64,000 bases of DNA, from NCBI GenBank assembly GCA_025765615.1, contig JAIVFJ010000212.1, positions 1-64,000 on the forward strand. The letters are read 5' to 3'. Positions 9,869 to 49,660 of this stretch are shown here, in pieces. Below the pieces are notes generated by a model. The model saw nothing but the letters and a program-made list of their open reading frames with translations, searched no databases and was not told the origin of the DNA. Positions within the stretch are counted from its first letter, which is position 1; every line of letters starts with the position of its first letter. Both the position numbers and the translations under genes were made by a program. Source of the DNA: Zopfochytrium polystomum (Eukaryota; Chytridiomycota; Chytridiomycetes; Chytridiales; Chytridiaceae).

Positions 9869-11258
9869 TGTGAGACTACACCAAGGTCTCAGTGATAAAG
9901 TCTAGGGATTTTATTCGCAAAAACAAGTGTACCTGTCATAAAACCACAAGGATCGGGGTGACCCCTATTATTCCTGGTTCTTTAGTTTCCAAGGCAATAT
10001 CAAAGTGTATTTGCGGTTAACCCGTCTTTATTATTGGGCCTGCTTTTACTACTTTCGTCTTAACAGTTTCCTTTGCACCAGGGTTTTCTCAACTCTTTTC
10101 TTTTTTGGTGACTAACAGAGACTGCCCGACTGCCTAGGGATGGGGTGCCTGACAGGCCATACCCCATGCCTGCCTAATTTATTATTTATTTTTGGCACTT
10201 GTACATACACGCATAAGGTTGGGGGGACTTTAAGCATATGTGGTGGATGCTCCAAGTCAGGGGTTTTGACTTGTCAATTTTCTCTCTCTCTGTTTTTGGG
10301 CCATTTCTCTTTCCCTTTTTACTTCAATCTGACTTTGGCACCAAGACAGAGTCCCTTCAAATCCATCTGGCTCACGACGGCGAGGGTAGTGAGAGGTGGT
10401 CTGCACCCAGGTGAGTACATGGTCCCTTTGGGGGCTCCTCTCAAGGGGCCGCAGGTGGGGAATGCAGCTGGCCCCACCACTGAATGTGTGGCGCTGCTGG
10501 CTCTGTGTTGGAGTGAGGATCACGGGCACTTGCCCTCCACGGGGGCGACAGCGGTGGCATCATCGACCTTGCAAGGGTGTTGGTGGCCAGTTGCACGGCC
10601 CCCAACACCTGAGAGTTCGATCTACAAGTGCCTGCCTCAGTCCTATTCCTGTGAGAGTGAGATGTGTGAGTACGAGTGCAATGCGATAAAGACCGTTGGT
10701 CAAGTGATTGTACCGACACAGCCCAGCGGGGTGTGTGTATGATCGCAGGTGTTTCCGCATGCGAGTTCCCTGCTGGCGACCTTCCAACCCCTACATAGTT
10801 GACTCCCTTCTCTCTATCCCCCTTCTCGCTGGCGACATCAAGGGCTCCTGCAGCACTGTCCACAACGAGGGCGCTAGGTTGCGCCCTGTCTGTCCCATTG
10901 CTATTAACCGCTCCTGTTGTGTTTGAGATTAGGTTCCAGAGATAAACACCCCCATTTCCCTCTTCTCTCTTTTTTTTCTGCAGTTGTGTTGCACCCTCAG
11001 GAGTGCCCTTCCATTTCCCCTCGCACCAGCCTGTGGCCACGCCACCGATCCTTCAGAGGATTGTCCCTCTGAATGTTCATTCATTGGGTTTGAGACCCCT
11101 GTTAGACAGATCAGCTGGGATACTTCATGGACTAAGCAAGTAGTAGGGTTGAAACACCCCCTAGACAACAGCCCAATAAAGTTAGTTTTAGCCCATTATT
11201 TGCTTTCCCTCACTCTGGGCCCACATCCCAGGGTCAAAGGAGTGAGTATAGTCTCACA
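9869..11258 (+). repeat. Long terminal repeat, family II, copy 1 (about 1.39 kb)
   Basis: The repeat begins TGTGAGACTA and ends TAGTCTCACA, giving a short terminal inverted repeat with TG...CA ends as in LTRs. It follows the gypsy integrase remnant and a purine tract, so it is read as that element's 3' LTR. Two further diverged copies are at 23,480-24,356 (inverted) and 55,280-56,515 (interrupted). A conserved block of all three contains TTATTATTGGGCCTGC and CAGGGTTTTCTCAAC. No matching target duplication was found. Confidence 0.65.
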
Positions 11259-15939: not shown

Positions 15940-18892
15940 AAAAGGGAAAAATGGAGGGTTAAGGAAGAATTAAAAGTGGGGTCACACGATACTTCTCTAC
16001 TCGCCTTCTATTTCCCAATTTTCATTCTTAATCTCTACTCTGCCACTTCTCTCCTTTTCTCTAACATCGGCGAGCAGTTCGGACAATCAGCACGTGGGAT
16101 CCAGCGGAAACAGACACACACGCCTCCCCCTCCGCTGGTGGTGGTTGACAGTGGCACACTCAGGCGGAACGAGCAGGTCTGCGGCTCGTACATCACCCGC
16201 ATCTTGGCAAAGTCAGCAGGCCAGGGAGCGACGCATCTTCCGCCACCGCTGAGTGGGAGGCTGTGGCCGTGCTGCTGTTGCTGTGCCTGCTCATATTGAG
16301 GTGCAGTCCCGCGACCGTCGTCGGCTGCCGGCATGCAGCGCTTAGCGCCGAAGAACAGAAACACGCCTGCTGCTGCAGGGTGCCGATGCTTCCCGAACCG
16401 TGCGCCGCTGGGCTTCCTGCTGGTCTCCCACCAGCACACGGTGCGCATGCCCTCGCTCTGCGGCAGTGGGACAAGCGGTCCTCCCAGAGATCCGCTGCCA
16501 CGTTGCGTGGGACACCTCTAACGCAACCGACGCGCGCCGCGTCGAGGGACATTGCAGATAGATTCACCCTCGAAGCGATACTGTGCTGAATCACGGCATG
16601 GACCCACACACCATGCCTGCTCGGCCCTATCCCCAAAGGTGCGGAATGGGAAGATGGCAGCAATCAATCCGAGCAAGTGGGTGAAGAAGTCTATGGAGGT
16701 AACGGTGGTACCCTTGCTCTCAATCCGGAAGTAGTTGAGGTACTAGTTGGGGTGATCCATGGCATTGATGCCAGAGAGAAGCTGGAGGCCGTGGAGTTGA
16801 CAAAGGCGTTGACCGTCAGCCGATTGAAATTCCTACAATCACGAATGTAAGGTTTTGGGATGGAAAGAAAAACTTACAAAAGAAGAGCACTTACCACAGC
16901 TCATACTCCCACACCACCGTCAAGAGTACAACAGCTTCCCTGGCGGGGCTCGTGCTGCTCTACCCAAACTTTAACAGATTCAAATTGGGCTGTTGGGGTG
17001 AGGCAAAGTGTGTGATGCTGACCACCAGCACGGCAAGGAATTTTGCCATGAAAAATGCGTCTGGGATGCGAGCGTGGATGTCGAGCGTCGGATCTGTGAC
17101 TACCACTAAACAAGACTCAGATTTCTAATAGACACCTCCAAACCAGTCGCTCACCCTGCAGCAAAACACACCTCCCACGCAGACAGGACAGCCAAGGTTT
17201 GGGAACAGAAAAGCAAAATAGGGATAAAGTCTGGCCTGCAACTGCAAGGGGAGATGGTTGAGGAGGTGAGCCTACATCCTGTGCATGACGATAGAGGATG
17301 TGAGAGCTTACCGGCTTTGGCAGGCTGGACTAGAAGGAGATCGTCAGCAATGTCTTTCCCCACTCAGCGTCCCTTTTCTGGCTGCACTTCTCTGCTAGAT
17401 GATTTAAGCCAACCCTGTGTGACTGAGTCGAGTGGTGTGGATTCCTGGGGAAAAAAAAATGCACTTTCCCTTGCCTTCAAAAAGATCAACACAGCAGACT
17501 GCCAGTAGAGAATATTGCAAGTGGCAGCAGGAGGCCAGGTTTTCACTAGCAGATGCCAAGGACTTTGGAGTGGTCAAAGTGGACAATGGAGAGCATGCTG
17601 GAGGTGAGGTCAAAGTTGACGGTGCAGGCTTTTCTTTTTCTTTGGGGGAGGGGTCAGTCAGATCTGATCATTGGCTAATCCGCACAAAAATAGATCAATA
17701 TACTCACAAACAACCTTCCTCTGCGCACGTGCAGTCCTTCAACACCTTTTCCAGCGCGTACGGCGCAACCTTGAACGCTGCAACTAGGGCCAGGACCTCA
17801 TCTCCAACAGCTCACCTGGTCAGCAGAGAGCATTGCAAGACCCGCCCCCCCCAGACAAAGACTATTCAAAAAACCACTCTGGAGAACCTTTCTCAGACAT
17901 GAGCTGGGAGACTTAGGTACTGGAGCTATTCAGAGAACCACTCCCAGAAACAAGACAGGTGGACCAGGAGCTCAACATCCGTCACTCAAAAGTGAGGAGG
18001 AGCATCACTCCCTACCTCACACCGACTCATTCACTGGGAGGACCTTCAGGGCAACTATACAACTTGACGCACAGCGGGATGAAAGACACATGTGGGAAGC
18101 TTGACAATCATCAACCAAGCAGGCGTAAGGATTTGTTGCACACTGAAGGCAGCCTGTAAGAGTGTAACTGGGCTGGAACTACAGTGGGTACCCCCGCCTG
18201 CAAGGGACAGCTGAAAGAGGGGACAATGGGGGGGGCAAGAGGACCAAATGAAGCGTGTATGACCCTTTGAAGAGGGGGACTTGTACGATGGCCGAAGTGG
18301 GGATTCAAGTGGGCTGAGCGCCATTGCGCCAGTTCCAGTTTTCTACATATAAAAGAATAGTTGTGTGAGCTAGGCAATCACCACACAAGACCCACCTTCC
18401 TCCTGCTTGCAGTGTGGTGGGAAGCCTATTGCAATAGGCGAGGACGGGGTGCTGGGTGGGCGGCTGTGGCGAAGGCGAGGGGGGAGACTGGACAACCTGG
18501 TGGCTGATTCTATGAGATCTCCTCTTCATCTTCAGGGGCTCATCTATAGTCTAGTGGCAAAAGGGATAAGACAAGTCTTTAAGATGGGAAGCTCCTGGTT
18601 ATTAGCAGAGCCAGTACCCTGGATTTAACTCAAACTCAACAAAACAAAGATGGATGATGTGATTCAATTCTGTCTTTATTCAAGGACAGCTAGACCAAGT
18701 GGAGTTGCTCAATGAAGAGTACCCCACAGGCCCAGGTTCAAGCCCTGACTATCCAACATGGTGACCAACAGGCAGTAATTCAACAAAGGAATGCCCTATA
18801 GCAGTATGGCATCTGCCAGTATCACAGAGACAGAGCTCAATGTGAGAACCAACCAGGTAGGGGAAGAAAACCTCACTCTGGCCTGGGGAAAT
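15940..18892. other. Long region without a supported gene
   Basis: Only short, interrupted frames occur on either strand, with GC varying from AT-rich (17.4-17.7 kb) to GC-rich (16.1-16.6 kb). No domain, repeat family or RNA gene was recognised. The right end is the insertion site of element A. Confidence 0.4.
18888..18892. repeat. Target site duplication of element A (left)
   Basis: GAAAT immediately left of the LTR is repeated exactly at 22,848-22,852 right of the other LTR. A 5-bp duplication is typical of Ty3/gypsy integration. Confidence 0.9.
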
Positions 18893-19245
18893 TGTCAGGA
18901 ACAGGGCAGGACAGGACAAGGCAGACAAGGAACTGAGAGGAGTGATGATTGTATTGGAAACAATAATTCACTTGAGGGATGGGACAGGTTCCCCATCCCC
19001 CTTTTATACCTTTTGAGAATGTTCCTTGTCAAGACTCAAAGAATGTTCCAGAAAGAGCAATTAGTAATACAATGATACCAATGATACCAATGACAACAAG
19101 ACAAGTCAGGAAAGCAAAGAAGGTTCCAGAAGGTTCCACAAGGTTCCATGAAGGAATGTTCTAGAAGGTTCCAGAAGGTTCCAGAAGGTTCCATGAAGGA
19201 ATGTTCTAGAAGGTTCCAGAGGTTTCCAGAGGGTGATTCATAACA
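18893..19245 (-). repeat. 3' LTR of chromovirus A
   Basis: It ends TGTCAGG...CATAACA on the plus strand (sense TGTTATG...CCTGACA). It appears identical to the LTR at 22,495-22,847. It contains the heat-shock-element array (19,119-19,233) and a TATAAAAG box (19,001-19,008, minus). The pol stop codon abuts it directly. Confidence 0.95.
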
Positions 19246-19261
19246 TCATCTCCCCCTTTTA
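19246..19261 (-). promoter_or_regulatory. Polypurine tract of element A inside the last pol codons
   Basis: The sense strand reads AAAAGGGGGAGATGA directly against the LTR end. The purine run encodes the final Lys-Arg-Gly-Arg of Pol, and TGA is its stop codon, so coding sequence and plus-strand primer overlap completely. Confidence 0.8.
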
Positions 19262-21564
19262 GGCCTCTTCTGCAACTTGGTGGGGTACCTGGTCTTGAAC
19301 TCGAGCAGAAGGTCTTGGCAGTGAGTGAGGTTTGACTCAGGCTCCCAGGTGTTGTCAGCATCTGAGTAACCTTTCCACTTAACAAGGAACTTGAGTGTTC
19401 TTCCAAACCACTTGGCATCCAAGATTTGTTCAACCTCAAATTCCTCTTCACCTTCTACCTCAACTGGAGGAGGAGGAGGAACAACTCTGCCTGGAATGGA
19501 ATTGGCCACAAACTTCTCTAAAAGGCTGACATGGAAAACTGGGTGGATCTTCATGGATGCAGGGAGATCCAGCTTGAAGGTGACTGGATTGATTTGCTCC
19601 AAGATCTTGAAAGGTCCCAACTTGAGGTTGTCTAGCTTGGGACTTGGTCTTTTGGTCTGCAAGTTCTTCCTCAGAAGCCAAACTTGCTGACCCACAGCAA
19701 GGTCATGGTCCATTCTGTGAGTGTTGGCAAATCTTGAGGCATCTTCTTGGGCTTGCTTCAGGGTGGAGTCCAGGAAGGAGTTGATGATCTTGAGCTTATG
19801 TAAGTGTGAAGCCGCAGCAGGAGCTTGGACATTGGATAGGGTCTCTTGTCCCAGAAGATCTCCTCTTGGATTGAAGCCATAGGTTGCAAAGAAAGGAGAT
19901 AGCTGGGTGCTTGAGTGGAGAGAATTGTTGAGAGCAAATTCTGCCAGTGGAAGGAGGGTGGGCCAATCATCCTGTTGATAGCTGACATAGCACCTCAAAT
20001 ACTGCTCCAGAGTCTGGTTTGTTCTTTCTGTTTGTCCATCAGTCTGAGGGTGATAAGCAGTTGACAGTTGAGACTTGATTCCAAGGGCTGCTGTGAGTGC
20101 TTTCCAAAATTGAGATCTGAACTGTGGTCCTCTGTCACTGATGATTGACTGAGGCAGCCCATGGAGCCTGAATATGTGCTGCAAAAACAGGTCTGCTGTT
20201 CCTTGTGCATCTATATTCTCAGTGCAGGGGATAAAATGGGCCAACTTTGTCCTTCTGCAGATGACAACAAGGATAGAGTCAAATCCATGGGATGGGGGAA
20301 GTTTCACAATGAAGTCCATGGATATTGATGACCAAGGGCTGATGGCAATTGGGAGGGGCTCCAGAAGTCCATAGGGCTTGTGTCTGCTGGATTTGTTTCT
20401 TTGACAGGTTTCACAGCTGCTGACATAGTTCTTGATGTACTTCCTCATGCCTGGCCAGTAGAAGTCTCTGGAAACAAGCTCATATGTCTTGTGCTCTCCT
20501 GGGTGTCCAGCTGTTGCTGCATCATGCCTTGTCTTGAGTATCTCAAGTTTTTCCTCTTCTTGGCTGATTTGAATCTTGTGAGGCTTGGGGTCCTTGGAAA
20601 TAGCATGGGCCCACACACTGTCAGGAAACAGTGAAAGGTGTGTCTTGGATGGTGGGGTGAAACCATCTCCCCCTTCAGGTGCAAGGTCTGTCCTTCTGTG
20701 CTCATCAGCAGTGGGGCTTGAATTGTTGACTGGGAACTGTGATTCTTGAATCTTTGACTGAGGGTTCTGTTCTTGGCAAAGACTGTGAGTTGTGGAGCTT
20801 GAATCTTGAATTTGGACTGTGAACTGTGGTACTTGAATCTTTGACTGTGGGTTCTGTGAACTACAGACTTGGCCATGACTGTGAGCTCTATGAGCTGTAC
20901 TGGAATCTTGACTATGAACTGTGAACTGTGAAATTTGAATCTTGGCTGGGATCTGTGAGCTGCAGGCTGATACTGGAGCTGTCATTTGTGGTTGACCTTG
21001 GATACTAGGCTGAGAACCTTGAATCAGGGACTTGAGAGCATGAGACTTGGAGGCTTGACTTGAGTTTTGGGTGACTGTTCCAATTGGTGGAGGTTGGACT
21101 TGACCAGTGACCCAATCAATGTCAGGGTTCTGGGCTTGCAGCCATGGTAATCCCAGGATGACAGAGAATGTGGGTGAGCCAAGATCCAATACTTCCAGGT
21201 TGACCATGGATGGTGGAAAGTCTTGGATGTGGAGGTTTAGCTTGGTTTCATGGCTGATTTCCTTGAACAGAGCATGATTGGCAAAGTGGACCTTGAGGGG
21301 TGTGGATTTCTTGATGGTGGGAATGGCACAAGACTTGGCAAGGGTGGCATCAATGATGTTGCAGGATGATCCAGAGTCTATAAGGGCCTTGGTTGTGATG
21401 GTTGACTTGGGTGAGAGTTGAATCTTGACATCCATGGTGAGTTGGTGGGGCTTGGAATCTGAGGTGTTTGTGGTGCTGGTGGTGGTGATGAAACAGGGGC
21501 AGCTTGGAGGAGGGTCCAGGGAATTGCCCCTCAGTGAGCCTGGACCTGGGAGTTTGGGTGCTTC
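19246..21564 (-). CDS. Pol of element A: protease, integrase, chromodomain (no RT/RNase H)
   Basis: The frame is entered by -1 frameshifting from gag at 21,552-21,558. An in-frame ATG at 21,613-21,615 would give 789 codons. The protease has the DSGSS active-site motif. After a repetitive Gln/Ser/Pro linker (units of SKIQVPQFTV type), the frame passes at about 20,700 straight into the RTDLAPEGG segment. In element B that segment follows RNase H, so about 470 codons are missing. The integrase then shows the HHCC zinc finger, the D-D-E core (MDFIV, SDRGPQF, QTERTNQ) and a GPF motif. A chromodomain (LVKWKGY, NTWEPE) is at the C-terminus. The last codons double as the polypurine tract. Confidence 0.9.
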   Translation of the reverse strand, partial: EAPKLPGPGSLRGNSLDPPPSCPCFITTTSTTNTSDSKPHQLTMDVKIQLSPKSTITTKALIDSGSSCNIIDATLAKSCAIPTIKKSTPLKVHFANHALFKEISHETKLNLHIQDFPPSMVNLEVLDLGSPTFSVILGLPWLQAQNPDIDWVTGQVQPPPIGTVTQNSSQASKSHALKSLIQGSQPSIQGQPQMTAPVSACSSQIPAKIQISQFTVHSQDSSTAHRAHSHGQVCSSQNPQSKIQVPQFTVQIQDSSSTTHSLCQEQNPQSKIQESQFPVNNSSPTADEHRRTDLAPEGGDGFTPPSKTHLSLFPDSVWAHAISKDPKPHKIQISQEEEKLEILKTRHDAATAGHPGEHKTYELVSRDFYWPGMRKYIKNYVSSCETCQRNKSSRHKPYGLLEPLPIAISPWSSISMDFIVKLPPSHGFDSILVVICRRTKLAHFIPCTENIDAQGTADLFLQHIFRLHGLPQSIISDRGPQFRSQFWKALTAALGIKSQLSTAYHPQTDGQTERTNQTLEQYLRCYVSYQQDDWPTLLPLAEFALNNSLHSSTQLSPFFATYGFNPRGDLLGQETLSNVQAPAAASHLHKLKIINSFLDSTLKQAQEDASRFANTHRMDHDLAVGQQVWLLRKNLQTKRPSPKLDNLKLGPFKILEQINPVTFKLDLPASMKIHPVFHVSLLEKFVANSIPGRVVPPPPPVEVEGEEEFEVEQILDAKWFGRTLKFLVKWKGYSDADNTWEPESNLTHCQDLLLEFKTRYPTKLQKRPKRGR
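21509..21558 (-). promoter_or_regulatory. -1 ribosomal frameshift signal (slippery CCCAAAC plus stem/pseudoknot), element A
   Basis: The heptamer C CCA AAC lies in the gag frame (sense strand, 21,558 to 21,552). A 5-nt spacer and the perfect 8-bp stem GGTCCAGG/CCTGGACC follow. GGGGCA in the loop can pair with TGCCCC just downstream of the stem (the latter extends a few bases left, to about 21,496). Pol is in the -1 frame and is open from this point. Confidence 0.85.
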
Positions 21565-22454
21565 TTCCTTGGGCAGTCCTTGACAGCATGCTCCTTGGAG
21601 CCACAGTAAAAACACAGTCCCTGCTGGGCCCTCCTTGTTTTCTCCTCTTGGCTCAGAGGACCCTTAGGAAGTGTCTCAACTGCATCCACTTGCATGGGTT
21701 CAGGAACTGTAAGAGCTTGAGGAACTGGGGTAGGTCTTGATGTAGTTCCTACTTGTCTTTGCTTCAGCCTCTTGGAGTAGAGTCTGTTGTCAATCTTGAT
21801 GGCAAGGAGAATGTACTCTTCCAAGGTCTCGGGGATGTGCAGAGACTGGGAGAGCATGTCTTGGATAGACTCATGGAGACCATCATGGTACAGCTCCATC
21901 AGAGCTGCATCATTGTATCCAGAGTCTCTGGCTAGTTGCTTGAATTGGTTGGTGTAGGCCACACAAGATTGCTTTCCTTGCTTGATATGCTTGAGCTTGG
22001 ATCTTGCTGTCCAAGATGCGTAGGGGTCACCAAAGGTAGCTTCCAGCCCCTCCCAGAGCTCTTGCAGGGTGGTGGGTGTGCTTGGGAGAGATCTGTACCA
22101 TGATTGAGCTTGACCAGACAGGAGGGTGCTTGTGAAAAGAACCTTGACTTGCTCACTGGGAAATCTTGAAGGTTGGAGAAGGATGACATTCTCCACAGTG
22201 GCCATGAAGTTCCTAAGGTCTTTGGCCAGCCCAGTGAACTTGTCAGGGCTGGGAACCTTGGGCTCTCTTGCTTGGTTGGCTTGAGGCAGGGGAAGAGCTT
22301 GATGTTCTTGTTGGTGAAGTTGTTGTTGAAGCTGGTGCTGCTGGTGAAGGACTTGTTGTTGAAGTTGGTGTGTCTGTCTTGAAAGGGCTTGTAATTGGTC
22401 CATCAAGGCTTGGAAGGCAGTTGCATCAGGGAAGGTGTTGTTTGGGTCAGACAT
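21531..22454 (-). CDS. Gag of element A
   Basis: The protein is 307 aa and begins MSDPNNTFP. It has a Gln-rich N-terminal coiled segment, then a retrotransposon gag core (WYRSLPSTP, LWEGLEATFGDPY). A CCHC zinc knuckle (CFYCGSKEHAVKDC) is near the C-terminus. It packages the element RNA into particles in the cytoplasm. The start lies 40 nt after the LTR, the first ATG in the leader. It appears identical in protein to the Gag of element B. A slippery heptamer lies over codons 300-301. Confidence 0.95.
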   Translation of the reverse strand: MSDPNNTFPDATAFQALMDQLQALSRQTHQLQQQVLHQQHQLQQQLHQQEHQALPLPQANQAREPKVPSPDKFTGLAKDLRNFMATVENVILLQPSRFPSEQVKVLFTSTLLSGQAQSWYRSLPSTPTTLQELWEGLEATFGDPYASWTARSKLKHIKQGKQSCVAYTNQFKQLARDSGYNDAALMELYHDGLHESIQDMLSQSLHIPETLEEYILLAIKIDNRLYSKRLKQRQVGTTSRPTPVPQALTVPEPMQVDAVETLPKGPLSQEEKTRRAQQGLCFYCGSKEHAVKDCPRKKHPNSQVQAH

Positions 22455-22481: not shown

Positions 22482-22492
22482 AAGTGAATTAT
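22482..22492 (-). promoter_or_regulatory. Primer-binding site of element A, self-priming type
   Basis: Two nucleotides inside the 5' LTR the sense strand reads ATAATTCACTT. It is the exact 11-nt reverse complement of AAGTGAATTAT at 22,565-22,575 within the LTR, 35 nt from the first T of the TATA box. No match to a usual tRNA 3' end (TGG...) is seen. Confidence 0.8.
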
Positions 22493-22602
22493 GATGTCAG
22501 GAACAGGGCAGGACAGGACAAGGCAGACAAGGAACTGAGAGGAGTGATGATTGTATTGGAAACAATAATTCACTTGAGGGATGGGACAGGTTCCCCATCC
22601 CC

Positions 22603-22610
22603 CTTTTATA
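22603..22610 (-). promoter_or_regulatory. TATA box of element A
   Basis: The sense strand reads TATAAAAG inside GGTATAAAAGGGGG, downstream of the heat-shock elements and upstream of the self-primer sequence. The same box occurs in all four LTRs of the two elements. Confidence 0.85.
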
Positions 22611-22720
22611 CCTTTTGAGAATGTTCCTTGTCAAGACTCAAAGAATGTTCCAGAAAGAGCAATTAGTAATACAATGATACCAATGATACCAATGACAACA
22701 AGACAAGTCAGGAAAGCAAA

Positions 22721-22835
22721 GAAGGTTCCAGAAGGTTCCACAAGGTTCCATGAAGGAATGTTCTAGAAGGTTCCAGAAGGTTCCAGAAGGTTCCATGAAG
22801 GAATGTTCTAGAAGGTTCCAGAGGTTTCCAGAGGG
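22721..22835 (-). promoter_or_regulatory. Heat-shock-element array in the U3 of element A
   Basis: The units nGAAn and nTTCn alternate at exact 5-bp spacing in blocks of four, eight and four, separated by TGAAG or CAAGG interruptions. An extra perfect trimer (GAATGTTCCAGAA) lies at 22,643-22,655, and a dimer (GAATGTTC) at 22,619-22,626, just upstream of the TATA box. This is the binding pattern of heat-shock factor HSF trimers. Confidence 0.85.
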
Positions 22836-22847
22836 TGATTCATAACA

Positions 22848-22852
22848 GAAAT
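22848..22852. repeat. Target site duplication of element A (right)
   Basis: GAAAT, identical to 18,888-18,892. Confidence 0.9.
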
Positions 22853-23479: not shown

Positions 23480-24356
23480 ACACGCGCACAGGGAGCACAT
23501 GGGAAACGGGGTGAGTGAGTGTCGTCGCCAGCACAGGGGGATGTGGAAACACCTGCGATTGTACACGCACCCTGCTGGGCTGCTTCGGCACGATCACTCG
23601 ACCAGCGGGCTTTATCGTATTGCACTTGTACTCACAGCAATAGGACCGAGGCAGGCACTCGTAGATCAAACACCCTTGTGGGGTCGATGACGCCACCACT
23701 GTTGCCTCTGTGGCGGGCAAGGGCCTGTGATCCTCACTGCAACACAGTTCGTGGTGGGGCCAGCTGCATTCCCGACCTGCAGCCCCACAAAGGGACCATG
23801 TACTCACCTGGGTGTGCACTACCCTCACCTCCGTGAGCCAGATGCATTTGAAGGAACTCTGTATTGATGCCAAAGGACAGAAATCAGATTGAAGAAAAAA
23901 GGAAAAAGAGAAATGGCCCAAAAACAGAGAGAGAGAGAGAGAAAATTGACAAGTCAACCCCCCCTGACTTGGAGCATCCACCACAAATGCTCTAAGTCCC
24001 CCCAGCCCTATGCGTGTATGTACAAGTGCCGAAAATAAATAATAAACTAGGCGGGCTTGGGGTACAGCCTGTCAGGCACCCCATCCCTAGGCAGTCAGGC
24101 AGCCTCCGTTAGTCACTGAAAAAGAAAATATGTTGAGAAAACCCTGGCGCAACAGAAACTGTTAAGACAAAAGTAGTAAAAGCAGGCCCAATAATAAAGA
24201 CAGGTAAGCAGGAAATATACTTTGATAATGCCTTGGAAACTAAAGAACCAGGAATAATAATAGTAGTCCTGATCCTTGCAGTTTTATGCCAGGTACGCTT
24301 GTTTTTGTGAATAAAATCCCAAGACTTTATCACTAAGACCTTGGTGTAGCCTCACA
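23480..24356 (-). repeat. Long terminal repeat, family II, copy 2 (inverted, truncated)
   Basis: The reverse complement from 24,356 begins TGTGAGGCTACACC. It follows copy 1 (9,869 onward) block by block: GGGCCTGC, CAGGGTTTTCTCAAC, GGTGGATGCTCCAAGTCAGG, and TACGAGTGCCTGCCTC near the end. Similarity stops near 23,480, so the distal part is lost. A purine-rich stretch (GTGGAGGTAAGGGG) precedes the start, as for copy 1. Confidence 0.7.
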
Positions 24357-39519: not shown

Positions 39520-41154
39520 TCATAGCCCGTCGCCTCTCCCGACACCGACCGCTGGCCGGTAGCCAATGAACCCTTGCGACCCGATCTCCGTCACGCTTCC
39601 TTCGCTCGCGGTGGTTGCGGCGATCCACCATCCGTCGCTGTCCGCGTCTTGTTCGTCCGTGTCGACGCCTTCCCGGTATGGGTAAAATGCCAGCTGCCTT
39701 TCCAGCCCTCCCGCCATGGCGGCGTTGCGGCCCCGCGCGGCGGGTCTTGGGGAGTCGATCGGGTGTATTGACGCGACGGGCGAGAGAGGGCCGGGCGAGG
39801 ACGAGGCGAGGATGGGGGGAGTGGCGGAGATGGGGGCGGAGGCGAGGCGCGGGGAGGAGGCGCCGAGGCGCGGGAGGAGGGATGAGATCGAGTTGTAGTG
39901 CGGGATGGGATCTCGCGGCGGTTCGTACGGGTTTTCGGTCGCCGTCGCTCCGGGGGACAAGGCAGGCAGCGGGGGCATGAGAATGACCGTCGGCCGCCGG
40001 GGCACGCCGCCGAGTTTCCCGTCGTCCGGTCCGCCGCCGACACCGCCGACGCCTCGCGCGCTCTGCTGCTGCTGTTGCATGCCGTACGGCGCGCATCCGT
40101 CCATCGCCTCCATCGGCACGCCGTTCACCGAGACCGACTGGCGCGGCTCGGACTCTGCCGGTCCGCTCGGCGTCGCGTACAGCAGGAACCGAGTCATCAG
40201 AATGTCGAGGAGCAGGAGCGTCGTGTACGAGCCCTTGACCATCCACGCAAACTTGGACACGTTCTGCAGCGTCAGGTAGTCGATTGCGTCGTGGTTCGAG
40301 TAGTGCACGACAAAGTTGACCACGCAGATGAGGAGCGTGTTGATGAAGATGACTGCGAAACGCGGGATGGAGGAGTTGAGGAGGGTGCGGAGGACAAATT
40401 GGCCTTGCTGAAGCGCAGGGTTTGACTTTTGGGAGGCGTACTCGAGGACGTTGAGGGCGAGGAGTACCATCAGGATCAGATCGGCGGAGCCCCAAATGAG
40501 GAAGGCGTAGTTGTGGGCGAGCTCGATGTTGGAGTCCATCAAGCGGTTCGCGGCGTATCGGAGGCGACCAATGTTGAGGCGGGCCGCCATGAAGCCCATG
40601 AGGAGGAGGACGAGGATCCTTTGGATGACACTGTCAACTTTGGGATTCCGAATGACGACTTTGGTTTTGATGTAGGAGTAGTACAACCGTCTGCAGCAGG
40701 GGGGCGTGGTTAGAGGGTTTGCGGTACGTGCCATGATTTGGTATGAAGCTGTCCCACGTGACCAACTTGAAACGGAAACAAAACATGCCGAAAAAACACT
40801 TGCCATGCTCTCGTGGAGGATCCAATTGACCTCGTTCGCAAACAGGATCCACGTGAACCTCGAGTACGCACCGGGCTGCTGGTACCCGCAATTAGCGGCC
40901 GCGACCCAACCGTCCTCCATGAGGGTGCCAACCATCCCGGCGATGGAGTGGATGAGCAGCACGTTCCAGAGCGACTTTTTCGACGAGAAGGACCAGCAGT
41001 AGATGGCGAGCACGCATCCAATGAGCTTGGACCAGGCCTGGCCGCCGTTGACCGACTCCAGCCAGCAGATGTCGAACCGGGTTTGCGGGAGGGTCGAGTT
41101 GATGACGAGGTAAGGGGTGGACGTGGCCGGCAGTGTTGGAGTCCCGTCCGACAT
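39520..41154 (-). CDS. Seven-transmembrane protein with Pro-rich cytoplasmic tail
   Basis: It is a 544-codon open frame starting at the ATG at 41,154. Seven hydrophobic segments can be picked out: LIGCVLAIYCW, VLLIHSIAGMVGTL, FTWILFANEVNWIL, ILVLLLMGFMA, FLIWGSADLILMVLLAL, FAVIFINTLLICVVNFVV and YTTLLLLDILMTRFLLY. A short extracellular N-terminus carries an NST site. The last 200 residues are Pro/Ser/Ala-rich with a poly-Gln run and an acidic end. This is the layout of a receptor-like 7-TM protein, but no GPCR family signature was identified. A 113-bp segment at about 40,692-40,804 is bounded by GCAAGT and ctgcag like an intron, yet removing it breaks the frame, so it is kept as coding. Confidence 0.7.
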   Translation of the reverse strand: MSDGTPTLPATSTPYLVINSTLPQTRFDICWLESVNGGQAWSKLIGCVLAIYCWSFSSKKSLWNVLLIHSIAGMVGTLMEDGWVAAANCGYQQPGAYSRFTWILFANEVNWILHESMASVFSACFVSVSSWSRGTASYQIMARTANPLTTPPCCRRLYYSYIKTKVVIRNPKVDSVIQRILVLLLMGFMAARLNIGRLRYAANRLMDSNIELAHNYAFLIWGSADLILMVLLALNVLEYASQKSNPALQQGQFVLRTLLNSSIPRFAVIFINTLLICVVNFVVHYSNHDAIDYLTLQNVSKFAWMVKGSYTTLLLLDILMTRFLLYATPSGPAESEPRQSVSVNGVPMEAMDGCAPYGMQQQQQSARGVGGVGGGPDDGKLGGVPRRPTVILMPPLPALSPGATATENPYEPPRDPIPHYNSISSLLPRLGASSPRLASAPISATPPILASSSPGPLSPVASIHPIDSPRPAARGRNAAMAGGLERQLAFYPYREGVDTDEQDADSDGWWIAATTASEGSVTEIGSQGFIGYRPAVGVGRGDGL

Positions 41155-42579: not shown

Positions 42580-43093
42580 CAGTCTACTCTGAGTGAGTGA
42601 GTGGAAGGAGTGAATGAAGTGGTGATGTGTGTTTGTGGGTGGTCCTTCTCCCTAACTTGGAGAGAAAGAGAAAAAACTCTGTTATGAATTATGGATACAT
42701 AATGATGATATGCATGCTGTAATAGTTGCTAGGCAAGCGTGACCTGCACAGGGTAAAAACCTCTCCTATATTGTCTGCTTGAGCAGAGGAGGAGGAAAAC
42801 TGTTATAACTGGGTTTTCTGTTCCGTATTGTCCACTTTCATGGGCACCACACAACTTAACTGTGACGGCCCAAGCTGGCACACCACAGTTGCCTCCCTGA
42901 GTGGAATGCCAGCCCTTCCCGTTATTTGCTGTCTCGCCACAGCCAGCCACTGGGCCATGACTAACCGAGCTGGGGTGTCCTGATTGGATGGTTTCTAGAC
43001 CCTTTCCCCTTTTTGCTTCGGTCCCCAGGATCTGAACCCAGGCCCCCAGGTAGATACAGCAGGTGTTAGGCCACTGCACTACGCTGCCCCCCC
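42580..43093 (-). mobile_element. tRNA-derived SINE sharing its tail with the 55.6-kb fold-back element
   Basis: Reading leftward from 43,093, a tRNA-like head carries an A-box TAGTGCAGTGG (43,071-43,081). A B-box GGTTCAGATCC (43,028-43,038) starts 43 nt further on, close to tRNA spacing. The body runs to about 42,840. From there to 42,580 the sequence matches one arm plus the centre of the fold-back element at 55,624-56,300 (AACAGTTTTCCTCCTCC, GGAGAGGTTTTTACCCTG, GCTAGGCAAGCGTGAC). No target duplication was found. Pol III transcription would be expected from the boxes. Confidence 0.65.
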
Positions 43094-43149: not shown

Positions 43150-43955
43150 GCCACACATTACATGATGCAGCAGAGCGGCTTGCTGGAATGGTGGATGGAT
43201 TTGAGCCCATTGCACCGGACTTGGATTCGCTATGTGATGTGTGTCAGCACACAAAGCTTACACGCCCACCATCTTGACAATCCAATAACCCCGGAGCATG
43301 GCATCCACTTGACCTGGTCCACATGGATTTCACACCAATCAAGGCAAAGGTGCTGAATGCGAGGAAATGGCTCCAGTCCTAACAGACACCTTTTCTGATC
43401 TGAAAGTTGCCTTTGCCATGAAGGGCTGGTTGGGGGAGGAGATACTGTCCAATTTTATGCTGTGGCTCCCATGGGCAGAGTGAGCATGTGACTGGACGCT
43501 GAAAGCTATTCAGTGCGACAATGTGAAAGAATTCTACCAGGGGCAGTTTGCAGACAAGATGAAAGATATTGGAGTCAAACTGCAAGCTCCTATCGCTTAT
43601 GAGCATGAGCAGAATGGAAAGCGGAAATTGCAAACAGGAATTTGTTGCACCAAGCACACTCAGCCCTGCTTGATGCTCAGATGGGTAAGAAGTGGTGGCC
43701 TCATGCACTAGCCACTGCTGTTTAAGTGAGTAATCAATTGCTTGTAAAGGGACTCTCTCTCACTCAAATCAAAACTGACTTGGCAAGCTCTGGTATTTAG
43801 CCTGGGGATGGGCTCGCTATTCTGCTGAGCATTTGACTGGCAAGAACAAGTTGAATGAGTGGAGTCAGGTTGTGTGCATGCTATCATATGCACAAGATGG
43901 AAAGGCGTACAATGTTCTGGACCCTTCCACAAATGAAATATTTGTCTCTTGGAAT
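43150..43955 (+). pseudogene. Old copia integrase fragment, left of element B
   Basis: Plus-strand pieces match a copia integrase: the zinc-finger end CDVCQHTKLTRPPS, then DLVHMDFTPI (first catalytic Asp), CDNVKEFYQGQFADK (second Asp) and AYEHEQNGK. The C-terminal module AQDGKAYNVLDPSTNEIFVSW ends exactly at the element B insertion point. Several stops and shifts separate the pieces. The remainder continues at 49,261. Confidence 0.75.
43951..43955. repeat. Target site duplication of element B (left)
   Basis: GGAAT, repeated exactly at 49,261-49,265. Confidence 0.9.
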
Positions 43956-44308
43956 TGTCAGGAACAGGGCAGGACAGGACAAGGCAGACAAGGAACTGAG
44001 AGGAGTGATGATTGTATTGGAAACAATAATTCACTTGAGGGATGGGACAGGTCCCCCATCCCCCTTTTATACCTTTTGAGAGTGTTCCTTGTCAAGACTC
44101 CAAGAAAGTTCCAGAAAGAGCAATTAGTAATGCAATGATACCAATGATACCAATGACAACAAGACAAGTCAGGAAAGCAAAGAAGGTTCCAGAAGGTTCC
44201 ACAAGGTTCCATGAAGGAATGTTCTAGAAGGTTCCAGAAGGTTCCAGAAGGTTCCATGAAGGAATGTTCTAGAAGGTTCCAGAGGTTTCCAGAGGGTGAT
44301 TCATAACA
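43956..44308 (-). repeat. 3' LTR of chromovirus B
   Basis: 353 bp with TG...CA ends. It retains the intact 11-nt self-primer sequence and the same heat-shock array and TATA box as the other LTRs. Confidence 0.95.
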
Positions 44309-44324
44309 TCATCTCCCCCTTTTA
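44309..44324 (-). promoter_or_regulatory. Polypurine tract of element B inside the last pol codons
   Basis: AAAAGGGGGAGATGA on the sense strand lies flush with the LTR, coding for Lys-Arg-Gly-Arg-stop exactly as in element A. Confidence 0.8.
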
Positions 44325-47300
44325 GGCCTCTTCTGCAACTTGGTGGGGTACCTGGTCTTGAACTCGAGCAGAAGGTCTTGGCAGTGAGTGAGGTTTGACT
44401 CAGGCTCCCAGGTGTTGTCAGCATCTGAGTAACCTTTCCACTTAACAAGGAACTTGAGTGTTCTTCCAAACCACTTGGCATCCAAGATTTGTTCAACCTC
44501 AAATTCCTCTTCACCTTCTACCTCAACTGGAGGAGGAGGAGGAACAACTCTGCCTGGAATGGAATTGGCCACAAACTTCTCTAAAAGGCTGACATGGAAA
44601 ACTGGGTGGATCTTCATGGATGCAGGGAGATCCAGCTTGAAGGTGACTGGATTGATTTGCTCCAAGATCTTGAAAGGACCCAACTTGAGGTTGTCTAGCT
44701 TGGGACTTGGTCTTTTGGTCTGCAAGTTCTTCCTCAGAAGCCAAACTTGCTGACCCACAGCAAGGTCATGGTCCATTCTGTGAGTGTTGGCAAATCTTGA
44801 GGCATCTTCTTGGGCTTGCTTCAGGGTGGAGTCCAGGAAGGAGTTGATGATCTTGAGCTTATGTAAGTGTGAAGCCGCAGCAGGAGCTTGGACATTGGAT
44901 AGGGTCTCTTGTCCCAGAAGATCTCCTCTTGGATTGAAGCCATAGGTTGCAAAGAAAGGAGATAGCTGGGTGCTTGAGTGGAGAGAATTGTTGAGAGCAA
45001 ATTCTGCCAGTGGAAGGAGGGTGGGCCAATCATCCTGTTGATAGCTGACATAGCACCTCAAATACTGCTCCAGAGTCTGGTTTGTTCTTTCTGTTTGTCC
45101 ATCAGTCTGAGGGTGATAAGCAGTTGACAGTTGAGACTTGATTCCAAGGGCTGCTGTGAGTGCTTTCCAAAATTGAGATCTGAACTGTGGTCCTCTGTCA
45201 CTGACGATTGACTGAGGCAGCCCATGGAGCCTGAATATGTGCTGCAAAAACAGGTCTGCTGTTCCTTGTGCATCTATATTCTCAGTGCAGGGGATGAAAT
45301 GGGCCAACTTTGTCCTTCTGCAGATGACAACAAGGATAGAGTCAAATCCATGGGATGGGGGCAGTTTCACAATGAAGTCCATGGATATTGATGACCAAGG
45401 GCTGATGGCAATTGGGAGGGGCTCCAGAAGTCCATAGGGCTTGTGTCTGCTGGATTTGTTTCTTTGACAGGTTTCACAGCTGCTGACATAGTTCTTGATG
45501 TACTTCCTCATGCCTGGCCAGTAGAAGTCTCTGGAAACAAGCTCATATGTCTTGTGCTCTCCTGGGTGTCCAGCTGTTGCTGCATCATGCCTTGTCTTGA
45601 GTATCTCAAGTTTTTCCTCTTCTTGGCTGATTTGAATCTTGTGAGGCTTGGGGTCCTTGGAAATAGCATTGGCCCACACACTGTCAGGAAGCAATGAAAG
45701 GTGTGTCTTGGATGGTGGGGTGAAACCATCTCCCCCTTCAGGTGCAAGGTCTGTTCTTCTTGACAGGGCATCAGCCACAGTGTTAAGGTGGCCAGGAGAA
45801 TAGCACAGCTTAAAGTCATACTCAGAGAGCAGTTCAGCCCACCTGGCATGCCTCTGCTTGAGCAACCTCCTTGCCCTGAAGAAGGTGAGGTTCTTGTGAT
45901 CAGAATAGACAGAGATGCCTTTAGAACCAGCCAAGTAGTGTCTCCAGAATTTGAATGCTTCCACAATTGCAAGCAACTCCTTGTCATGGACTGTGTAGTT
46001 ACACTCAGCACTGTTCAGCTTCCTGGAGTAATATGCCACTGGATGCAGAGGAGCAGAGGGTTCCTGAGAGCTTGGCTGGGACAGAACAGCGCCAAGGGCA
46101 TAGTCTGAGGCATCAGTTTCCAAGGTGAAGGGAAGCAAGGGATCCACATGCTTAAGGAGTGGTGCACTTGTGGTTGCTGTCTTAAGAGCTAGCCAGGCTT
46201 GCTCTGCTGCTGGGGTCCATTCAAACTTGGTGGTCTTCTTGGTGAGATCAGTGAGAGGCTTGGCTATGGCAGAATAGTTGGCAATGAAGGTTCTGTAGAA
46301 GTTGCAAAATCCAAGGAAGCTTTGAACATCCTTGATGGAATTTGGAGCCTTCCATTCAAGAATAGTTTGGATCTTGTCTGGTGCCATGGAGATCCCTTTG
46401 TCAGACACAATGAACCCCAAAAACTCAATGGAGGTCTTGTGGAATTCACACTTCTCCAGCTTTGCATAGAGGTGATGCTGTCTGAGTCTCTCCAAGACAG
46501 TCTTGACATGTCCCATATGGCTTGCAGTGTCAGATGAAAATACCAGGATATCATCCAGGTAGACAATGACAAAAAGGTCCAGAATATCCCTGAAGATGTC
46601 ATTCATCATGCCTTGGAAAATAGCTGGAGCATTGGTAAGTCCAAAGGGCATAACCAAGTACTCAAAGTGACCGTATTTGCATCTGAAGGCAGTCTTCCAT
46701 TGATCCTGGGGCTTAATTCTGACCAAATTGTAGGCACCTCTGAGGTCAATCTTGGAAAATATCCTTGCATGGCTCAGTTTGTCCAGTAATTCAGAGATGA
46801 GAGGCAGTGGATAGCGGTTCTTGACTGTCATCTCATTGAGATCTCTGTAGTCCACACAGGGTCTCAGTCCCCCATCCTTCTTCTTGACAAAAAAGATGGG
46901 AGCTCCAGCTGGTGACTTGGAAGGTTGGATGAATCCCTTGTTCAGCATTTCTTCAATGTATTCTTGGAGGGCCTTGGCTTCTGGTGGAGAGAGGTGGTAC
47001 AGTGGCTTGAAAGGTGGGCTGCAAGTTTCATCCTTGAGTGGGATTTCACAGTCATAAGGCCTCTGAGCTGGTAGCAGGTCTGCCTTGGTCTTGGAAAACA
47101 CATCAGCATAAGGGAGATATTCTTTTGGTAGCTTGGATGCCAGCAAAAGGTCTGATGGGTCCAGGTTGTCGTGCTCCTCAGCAGTGGGGCTTGAATTCTT
47201 GACTGGGAACTGTGATTCTTGAATCTTTGACTGAGAGTTCTGTTCTTGGCAAAGACTGTGAGCTGTGGAACTTGAATCTTGAATGTGGACTGTGAACTGT

Positions 47301-47976
47301 GGTACTTGAATCTTTGGCTGTGGGTTCTGTGAACAAGAGTCATGGCCATGACTGTGAGCTCTATGAGCTCTACTTGAATCTTGACTGTGAACTGTGAACT
47401 GTGGAACTTGAGTCTTGGCTGGCTGTGAATCTTGAATCAAGGGCTTGAGAGCATGAGACTTGGGGGCTTGACTTGAGTTTTGGGTGACTGTTCCGATTGG
47501 TGGAGGTTGGACTTGACCAGTGACCCAATCAATGGCAGGGTTCTGGGCTTGCAGCCATGGTAATCCCAGGATGACAGAGAATGTGGGTGAGCCAAGATCC
47601 AATACTTCCAGATTGACCATGGATGGTGGAAAGTCTTGGATGTGGAGGTTTAGCTTGGTTTCATGGCTGATTTCCTTGAACAGAGCATGATTGGCAAAGT
47701 GGACCTTGAGGGGTGTGGATTTCTTGATCGTAGGAATGGCACAAGACTTGGCAAGGGTGGCATCAATGATGTTGCAGGATGATCCAGAGTCTATAAGGGC
47801 CTTGGTTGTGATGGTTGACTTGGGTGAGAGTTGAATCTTGACATCCATGGTGAGTTGGTGGGGCTTGGAATCTGAGGTGTTTGTGGTGCTGGTGGTGGTG
47901 ATGAAACAGGGGCAGCTTGGAGGAGGGTCCAGGGAATTGCCCCTCAGTGAGCCTGGACCTGGGAGTTTGGGTGCTT
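44309..47976 (-). CDS. Pol of element B: protease, RT, RNase H, integrase, chromodomain
   Basis: It is read as a Gag-Pol fusion by -1 frameshifting at 47,965-47,971. From an in-frame ATG at 48,028 the frame is 1,239 codons. Using that numbering, the protease DSG is at 80-82 and a repetitive Gln/Ser linker follows. The RT has the catalytic YLDD at 490-493 and a GYH-like FRCKYGHFEYLVMPFGL block. RNase H has the ETDASDYALGAVL motif and ends near VADALSR. The integrase has the HHCC finger and the D-D-E core (MDFIV, SDRGPQF, QTERTNQ), then a GPF motif. The chromodomain (about 1,173-1,230; EVEQILD, LVKWKGY, NTWEPE) would direct integration to marked chromatin. The last codons form the polypurine tract. 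Confidence 0.95.
47909..47971 (-). promoter_or_regulatory. -1 frameshift signal with predicted H-type pseudoknot, element B
   Basis: Slippery CCCAAAC is at 47,965-47,971. A 5-nt spacer is followed by stem 1, GGTCCAGG (47,952-47,959) with CCTGGACC (47,926-47,933). Stem 2 is GGGGCA in the loop (47,938-47,943) with TGCCCC (47,909-47,914). Connecting loops are 8, 4 and 11 nt. The heptamer lies in the gag frame as C CCA AAC, and the -1 frame continues as Pro-Lys-Leu into Pol. Confidence 0.88.
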
Positions 47977-48867
47977 CTTCCTTGGGCAGTCCTTGACAGC
48001 ATGCTCCTTGGAGCCACAGTAAAAACACAGTCCCTGCTGGGCCCTCCTTGTTTTCTCCTCTTGGCTCAGAGGACCCTTAGGAAGTGTCTCAACTGCATCC
48101 ACTTGCATGGGTTCAGGAACTGTAAGAGCTTGAGGAACTGGGGTAGGTCTTGATGTAGTTCCTACTTGTCTTTGCTTCAGCCTCTTGGAGTAGAGTCTGT
48201 TGTCAATCTTGATGGCAAGGAGAATGTACTCTTCCAAGGTCTCGGGGATGTGCAGAGACTGGGAGAGCATGTCTTGGATAGACTCATGGAGACCATCATG
48301 GTACAGCTCCATCAGAGCTGCATCATTGTATCCAGAGTCTCTGGCTAGTTGCTTGAATTGGTTGGTGTAGGCCACACAAGATTGCTTTCCTTGCTTGATA
48401 TGCTTGAGCTTGGATCTTGCTGTCCAAGATGCGTAGGGGTCACCAAAGGTAGCTTCCAGCCCCTCCCAGAGCTCTTGCAGGGTGGTGGGTGTGCTTGGGA
48501 GAGATCTGTACCATGATTGAGCTTGACCAGACAGGAGGGTGCTTGTGAAAAGAACCTTGACTTGCTCACTGGGAAATCTTGAAGGTTGGAGAAGGATGAC
48601 ATTCTCCACAGTGGCCATGAAGTTCCTAAGGTCTTTGGCCAGCCCAGTGAACTTGTCAGGGCTGGGAACCTTGGGCTCTCTTGCTTGGTTGGCTTGAGGC
48701 AGGGGAAGAGCTTGATGTTCTTGTTGGTGAAGTTGTTGTTGAAGCTGGTGCTGCTGGTGAAGGACTTGTTGTTGAAGTTGGTGTGTCTGTCTTGAAAGGG
48801 CTTGTAATTGGTCCATCAAGGCTTGGAAGGCAGTTGCATCAGGGAAGGTGTTGTTTGGGTCAGACAT
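47944..48867 (-). CDS. Gag of element B
   Basis: It is 307 aa with a Gln-rich N-terminal segment, a gag core and a CCHC knuckle (CFYCGSKEHAVKDC). The protein appears the same as Gag of element A. The start is the first ATG after the leader. The stop TGA lies within the loop of the frameshift-stimulating stem. Confidence 0.95.
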   Translation of the reverse strand: MSDPNNTFPDATAFQALMDQLQALSRQTHQLQQQVLHQQHQLQQQLHQQEHQALPLPQANQAREPKVPSPDKFTGLAKDLRNFMATVENVILLQPSRFPSEQVKVLFTSTLLSGQAQSWYRSLPSTPTTLQELWEGLEATFGDPYASWTARSKLKHIKQGKQSCVAYTNQFKQLARDSGYNDAALMELYHDGLHESIQDMLSQSLHIPETLEEYILLAIKIDNRLYSKRLKQRQVGTTSRPTPVPQALTVPEPMQVDAVETLPKGPLSQEEKTRRAQQGLCFYCGSKEHAVKDCPRKKHPNSQVQAH

Positions 48868-48905: not shown

Positions 48906-49015
48906 GATGTCAGGAACAGGGCAGGACAGGACAAGGCAGACAAGGAACTGAGAGGAGTGATGATTGTATTGGAAACAATAATTCGCTTGAGGGATGGGAC
49001 AGGTCCCCCATCCCC

Positions 49016-49023
49016 CTTTTATA
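49016..49023 (-). promoter_or_regulatory. TATA box of element B
   Basis: Sense TATAAAAG, same context as in A. Confidence 0.85.
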
Positions 49024-49133
49024 CCTTTTGAGAGTGTTCCTTGTCAAGACTCCAAGAAAGTTCCAGAAAGAGCAATTAGTAATACAATGATACCAATGAT
49101 ACCAATGACAACAAGACAAGTCAGGAAAGCAAA

Positions 49134-49248
49134 GAAGGTTCCAGAAGGTTCCACAAGGTTCCATGAAGGAATGTTCTAGAAGGTTCCAGAAGGTTCCAGA
49201 AGGTTCCATGAAGGAATGTTCTAGAAGGTTCCAGAGGTTTCCAGAGGG
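49134..49248 (-). promoter_or_regulatory. Heat-shock-element array in the U3 of element B
   Basis: It has the same 4 + 8 + 4 arrangement of alternating GAA and TTC units at 5-bp pitch as in element A, with no change in the array by eye. It lies upstream of the TATA box in the direction of transcription. Confidence 0.85.
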
Positions 49249-49260
49249 TGATTCATAACA

Positions 49261-49660
49261 GGAATGTGCGGTTTGAGGAGACTCTCACTGGTCACCTGAC
49301 TGATTCTACCTCGAAAGCTACTGTTTCCTCACACTCACGCCAACGGCGTCGCACCAATACTGGATCTGATTTGGATGATGATGATGTCCCTCTCACTGGC
49401 GAGGGGGGAGCACCAGCTGCTGACACTGCCAGTGAGAGTAAGAGTGAAAGTGATACAGACTCAGAAGCGTGGGAAAATGCGGCAACAAGTCCACAGCCAG
49501 GCTCGCCAGTGTGCGTGCCGTCAACAGAACAGCCAAGCACCCCTGTGAGTCAGCCATCACCACCTCACTCACCACAGGAGCGCCGTAGCGAGCGCATACA
49601 GATGCAACAAGACTGTGAGCGTACTCAGTGAGAACAAGCAGTATGTGATTTCCTGGAACG
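49261..49660 (+). pseudogene. Old copia pol fragment, right of element B
   Basis: The frame resumes with NVRFEE, the continuation of the copia integrase C-terminal module interrupted at 43,955. An acidic, Ser/Asp/Pro-rich linker follows (GSDLDDDDVPLTGEG, SQPSPPHSPQERRSERI), as between integrase and RT in copia elements. It ends at a stop near 49,631. The first five bases are the right target duplication of element B. Confidence 0.75.

Follow-up and report, generated by a model that had tools for sequence, protein, structure and literature searches.

The window considered here, meaning the whole 64-kb stretch of DNA that was analysed, holds two LTR retrotransposons on the minus strand, which we call A and B (Table 1). 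In each, the LTRs begin with TG and end with CA and the target duplications measure 5 bp, as expected of Ty3 chromoviruses; gag and pol occupy distinct reading frames that overlap. Searched in pieces, the pol frame of B gives matches to the Pfam families RVT_1, RT_RNaseH, Integrase_H2C2, rve, SH3_Tf2-1 and Chromo. The sequence-only reading had assigned the elements to a Tf1-like chromovirus, which the SH3_Tf2-1 and chromodomain matches in B and a self-primer in A bear out; judged by these features, the element is a chromodomain Ty3 retrotransposon of Tf1-like type. The fungal host is likewise supported, in that the 13 other proteins matching a window gene are all from chytrids, the best being from Zopfochytrium polystomum (57%), which makes the host a chytrid with kinship to Zopfochytrium. 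The window gene at 39523-41154 has no Pfam match, and its listed relatives come from chytrids only, at least seven of them from Zopfochytrium polystomum. A second dispersed repeat family is present in direct and inverted copies (9869-10768, 23961-24356, 42660-42816 and 55372-56495), including an inverted pair (55619-55887 and 56037-56305) that is 93% complementary with its arms 149 nt apart.

Table 1. Features of elements A and B in the 64-kb window, in window coordinates.
Feature	Position	Strand	Basis
Element A 5' LTR, 353 bp, starts TGTTATG, ends CTGACA	22495..22847	-	identical to A 3' LTR (353/353)
HSE block 1, 4 units, A 5' LTR	22801..22818	-	unit scan
HSE block 2, 8 units, A 5' LTR	22756..22793	-	unit scan
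HSE block 3, 4 units, A 5' LTR	22721..22738	-	unit scan
HSE trimer, A 5' LTR	22643..22655	-	unit scan
TATA-proximal dimer GAACATTC, A only of the two elements	22619..22626	-	sequence
TATA box TATAAAAG, A 5' LTR	22603..22610	-	sequence
Proposed self-primer of A, 11 nt, predicted RNA 5' end	22565..22575	-	exact complement of 22482-22492
Primer binding site of A, 2 nt inside 5' LTR end	22482..22492	-	complementarity to self-primer
Element A gag open frame, 307 aa	21531..22454	-	Retrotrans_gag E 2e-12
Element A pol open frame, lacking RT and RNase H through an in-frame internal deletion	19246..21615	-	frame comparison
Purine-rich tract AGGGGGAGATGA ahead of A 3' LTR	19246..19257	-	sequence
Element A 3' LTR, array 4-8-4-3	18893..19245	-	unit scan, LTR comparison
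Target site duplication of A, 5 bp	22848..22852 and 18888-18892	.	sequence
Element B 5' LTR	48908..49260	-	array 4 (49214-49231), 8 (49169-49206), 4 (49134-49151), 3 (49056-49068)
Element B gag open frame	47944..48867	-	open reading frame
Element B pol open frame	44309..48028	-	RT, RNase H, integrase, SH3_Tf2-1, chromodomain
Element B 3' LTR, array as in B 5' LTR	43956..44308	-	351/353 identical to B 5' LTR
Target site duplication of B, 5 bp	49261..49265 and 43951-43955	.	sequence

The proposed self-primer of A is an 11-nt exact complement that starts 35 nt past the start of the TATA box, and shuffling the 30-nt region 1000 times gives a match of at least 11 nt in only 4 cases. In the 5' LTR of B the match is just 7 nt long, and one of the two differences between the LTRs of B falls within it. 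Self-priming from the 5' end of the RNA is known in Tf1 and has been proposed for Tj1 (PMC4600332), and the predicted self-primer supports the Tf1-like identity. The present element is like Tf1 and Tj1 in this arrangement and in its SH3_Tf2-1 and chromodomain matches; unlike those elements of fission yeasts, it has gag and pol in separate overlapping frames and carries the array of heat shock elements (HSEs) described below, no such array being mentioned in the available part of that source (PMC4600332). Because the self-primer of A marks the RNA start independently, the array would lie about 110 bp upstream of a working TATA box, and TATAAAAG is likely the promoter of the genomic RNA.

Element A belongs to a derivative that has lost RT and RNase H while keeping gag, the protease region and integrase, and the same deletion junction is found at two further loci, L051 (on both strands) and L077. 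An identical junction at several loci implies that this defective derivative has multiplied, presumably helped in trans. For the RT/RNase H piece at 45701-47200, the top-scoring named relatives are from vertebrates, chiefly frogs (Lithobates pipiens 59%, E 0). The highest identity listed for this piece, 75%, belongs to an environmental contig (P0017), the gag search gives 68% (P0135), also on an environmental contig, and a search of viral_contigs for relatives of the element found none.

The U3 of the A 5' LTR contains alternating GAA and TTC units which, read toward the TATA box on the minus strand, form blocks of 4, 8 and 4 units, a trimer, a dimer and then TATAAAAG. This array is confirmed as it was first described from the sequence: the 4-8-4 blocks keep a 5-bp pitch, the additional trimer follows them in each of the four window LTRs, all of which share the 4-8-4-3 layout, and the TATA-proximal dimer is restricted to A. 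Tolerating a single CTC or TTG triplet as a mismatch lengthens each outer block to 6 units. Over the whole window there are 16 runs of at least 3 units, 12 of at least 4 and 4 of at least 5, every one of them inside an LTR, compared with 0.89, 0.03 and 0 expected from 200 dinucleotide shuffles of the window; a chance origin, for which 16 runs would have to be set against 0.89, is rejected. Shuffling the U3 itself (n = 2000) never produced a run longer than 3 units. In the U3 the GAA/TTC alternation occurs 16 times at the 5-bp pitch and 0 to 2 times at pitches of 3, 4 and 6-14, with a count of 9 at pitch 15, which is the third neighbour.

In the genome, whose 761 contigs total 80.2 Mb, about 2,190 LTRs are marked by a U5 tag of 33 bases at no more than 3 mismatches (1,077 + 1,117; reversed control 0 and 0). 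This number may include both haplotypes, since some pairs of loci on different contigs look the same (HSF L023/L024 and HSP70 L099/L100). A genome-wide motif scan, akin to the scan of LTR copies that had been named as a check, finds the array throughout the family: perfect tetramers of HSE units number 7,339, while the reversed pattern gives 10, and there are 2,229 + 2,234 pentamers against 0 and 1. On average there are 3.3 tetramers for each LTR tag, consistent with a mix of arrays that hold 2, 5 or 8. All 22 pentamer sites that were read, among 27 listed, lie in this LTR, as do all 25 once one site beyond the list and two window sites are included. On contig C1, block 1 of this LTR is present in 19 of 19 listed tetramer clusters, which reach to 2.5 kb before the contig end, and tetramers are present in 17 of 17 LTRs with an exact U5. 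An array peculiar to the window copies is rejected by these genome-wide U5 tags, pentamers and tetramers.

Within the span of the listed pentamers on contigs C1-C5, 35 of 57 exact-U5 LTRs have no pentamer nearby. Twenty of these 35 were fetched, and all 19 informative ones keep at least one tetramer (the sequence read for the twentieth, L087, belonged to another LTR, with array 4-8-4-3, and was left out), so that the proposal that many family members lack HSEs is rejected. The arrays of the 19 are mostly 4-4-3, with 4-3 in L088 and no trimer in L086. When places were instead anchored on the TATA box, 63 of 64 had at least one tetramer, the exception at C2:370901 being other sequence by eye. 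No member without the array, a result that the sequence-only reading had named as refuting, turned up among the LTRs read, though array size varies. At C2:370901 (L073, near 1900) the surrounding sequence is unrelated and free of HSEs, and the TATAAAAGGGGGA site there may serve a different repeat family as its promoter. Among 593 RT candidates 132 were scored, each with 100% rounded identity, which points to a recent burst.

The array varies by whole modules. Both ends were found for 58 LTRs, a non-random sample chosen by similarity to the A U3, by pentamers, or by an exact U5 without a pentamer; in it the main lengths form 45-bp steps, 263 bp (n = 1), 308 bp (n = 16), 353 bp (n = 18) and 398 bp (n = 12), and the other 11 LTRs measure 307, 315, 319, 354, 355, 358 or 363 bp. 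The usual array series is 4-3, 4-4-3, 4-8-4-3 and 4-8-8-4-3, with 3 to 27 units per LTR. Short 4-4-3 elements are as recent as the others and abundant too (for example at C1:658-663 kb, with identical RT), which indicates that a long array is unnecessary for spread. At C1:658100-673900 (L082, L083, L084, L071) lie two opposed elements whose target duplications are exchanged (AGCTA/GGTGC in one, GGTGC/AGCTA in the other), as expected from inversion by recombination between copies, and the second of the pair has LTRs of unequal array size, 308 and 398 bp. Five LTR tags in the same orientation at C6:360064-372780, spaced exactly 3,171 bp apart, form what by its layout is a head-to-tail array of elements with common LTRs. 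At C2:369950-370650 (L087, L073) a solo LTR flanked by the target duplication CTGTA abuts a U5 of this family in the opposite orientation, which may reflect a nested insertion.

On the host side, the HSF DNA-binding domain gives 14 exon-level matches, and the recognition helix SFVRQLNMYGFHK is intact in three distinct host sequences (L022, L023/L024 and L026/L027); by these matches the host has canonical HSFs. Each of the three HSP70 genes ending in EEVD (L100, L105 and L106) has one tetramer in which 11 of the 12 core letters agree, situated upstream of a TATA and between -216 and -307 relative to the ATG. These HSEs were found by a relaxed 4-unit score only, and in these EEVD-type genes; the score was reached by 3, 3 and 1 of 300 shuffles, respectively, and 28 other host pieces of 600 bp, drawn from 14 loci and in some cases overlapping or duplicate, score at most 9. 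Two other HSP70 stretches score 7 and 8 of 12, their true promoters lying maybe further upstream. A scan of ten HSP70 loci for a perfect HSE trimer found none; in it L104, L105 and L106 were cut from wrong starts (for L105 and L106 the true ATG was placed afterwards) and L107 was read in a wrong frame. The near-perfect HSP70 sites suggest that the host uses the canonical 5-bp HSE, and the retrotransposon array is far denser than these promoters with one imperfect tetramer each. In a 257-Gb collection of prokaryotes, organisms without HSF, perfect HSE hexamers occur in just 83 stretches.

We consider it probable that the array acts within the U3 of this Tf1-like chromovirus as an HSF-responsive enhancer, driving the genomic RNA and hence copying under stress. 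Host HSF would bind the 5-bp-phased nGAAn units as cooperating trimers and, once bound, would activate the TATA box about 110 bp downstream; the genomic RNA would then start about 35 nt past the TATA, and the element would be copied when HSF is active, as in heat or another stress that damages proteins. Promoter strength may depend on how many 45-bp modules are present. The sequence-only reading had likened the arrangement to HSF-driven promoters: the position of the array upstream of a TATA box marked by the self-primer upholds the promoter part, while the link to HSF is read from the motif. Counting against the enhancer are the spread of the 4-4-3 elements as well, the 7-nt self-primer match in the B 5' LTR and the lack of an array in the HSP70 promoters.

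HSF can act without heat. The array might accordingly serve expression at a basal level or in development, such as in sporulation, with HSF bound and heat not a meaningful trigger; such activity would leave an identical sequence, and the host has several HSF-domain genes (the 14 exon-level matches) that might provide it. We nevertheless regard this as unlikely, as arrays so dense are expected of a strongly inducible HSF promoter and the HSP70 promoters of the host have the same type of site.

Variation within block 1 bears on whether the array has an HSF function at all. With its flanks held fixed, block 1 has 1,472 exact copies in the genome; leaving its 12 core bases free raises this to 1,585, and leaving its 6 spacer bases free raises it to 1,756, so that 113 copies show changes at core sites and 284 at spacer sites, about five times more per site in the spacers; the contrast keeps p = 0.001 after a 20-fold thinning of the counts, the copies not being independent. 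Six fetched copies include four different spacer variants, which thus do not go back to one inherited change. When 46 LTRs from three length classes, a small sample partly selected through HSE matches, are compared column by column, variation is seen at 3 of 153 core sites and 10 of 114 spacer sites, and at 2 of 27 sites in broken triplets and 38 of 765 elsewhere; the overall direction agrees with block 1, with no contrast in the 398-bp class.

These counts weigh on the reading of the array as a neutral minisatellite, in which a 10-bp unit would read nGAAnnTTCn by accident and have been propagated 45 bp at a time through slippage or recombination. Its appeal is that TRF scores the array as a tandem repeat with 10- and 45-bp units and that copy number does change by whole modules. 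However, all unit positions of a neutral minisatellite should vary alike, and in block 1 they do not, given the excess of changes in spacers and the at least four spacer variants in six fetched copies; the trimer stands apart, outside the tandem array, and no LTR of the family among those read lacks a tetramer. Gene conversion between modules, which have their cores in common and not their spacers, is the main alternative to selection for the lower variation of the cores and could account for part of the contrast. On balance we hold a neutral minisatellite to be decidedly improbable. Binding of the array by a factor other than HSF has in its favour that HSF binding is deduced here from the sequence, and is the least credible reading, as strict GAA/TTC alternation at 5 bp is the signature of HSF trimers and the cytosolic HSP70 promoters of the host share the site type.

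HSE-bearing LTRs are already known; new about this array are how large and regular it is, that it varies by whole modules, that it is present through one family of about 2,190 LTRs and that its bearer is a Tf1-like element of a chytrid. DIRS-1 of Dictyostelium is a tyrosine-recombinase element and not an LTR/integrase element. The likeness, going by the title of a paper on it, is a heat shock promoter in the terminal repeats, with the class of element differing. In Arabidopsis, HSFA2 binds the LTR of the Ty1/copia element ONSEN, which has eight copies in Col-0 and whose activation needs HSFs; as here, the LTR contains HSEs (nTTCnnGAAn) (PMC3907296). In the present element the HSEs lie in U3 upstream of the TATA box. 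Among fungal LTR retrotransposons, Cryptococcus TCN12 has one putative HSE and TCN3 two in their LTRs, and both are mobilised at 37 C (PMC12810828). The present family shares putative HSEs with these elements but, unlike ONSEN, belongs to the Ty3 chromoviruses, resides in a fungus and numbers about 2,190 LTRs that vary in 45-bp modules and, unlike TCN12 and TCN3, has a dense phased array; heat activation of ONSEN and mobilisation in Cryptococcus have been observed, whereas this family is known from its sequence (PMC3907296, PMC12810828). The Magnaporthe Ty3 element MAGGY, also a fungal LTR element, is cited for stress-induced activation of its promoter in a paper whose text does not contain the terms "heat shock element" and "HSE" (PMC3978060). 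Caenorhabditis Helitrons carry tandem HSEs bound by HSF-1 and are similar as transposable elements that spread HSEs, but they are DNA transposons and, in the available part of that report, the HSEs are not presented as their own promoter (PMC6927752).

An array this regular had been called unusual, which holds for its density and scale and not for HSEs in LTRs as such, these being known in plants and, as putative sites, in Cryptococcus (PMC12810828). We found no fungal precedent for such an LTR in searches of one open-access library, in agreement with a 2026 Cryptococcus study whose available text describes TE activation via the host heat-shock machinery as undescribed in fungi (PMC12810828).

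The finding provides a fungal family in which about 2,190 LTRs carry an unmistakable candidate enhancer; since module number varies naturally in a series, a dose-response test is feasible without designed sequence. It is conceivable, although we would put it forward only tentatively, that the family tunes its heat-shock dependence by gain and loss of 45-bp modules and has sown thousands of HSF sites, enough for stress-linked bursts and for competition with chaperone promoters for HSF. The family raises the question of what effect thousands of strong putative HSF sites may have on the heat-shock response of the host.
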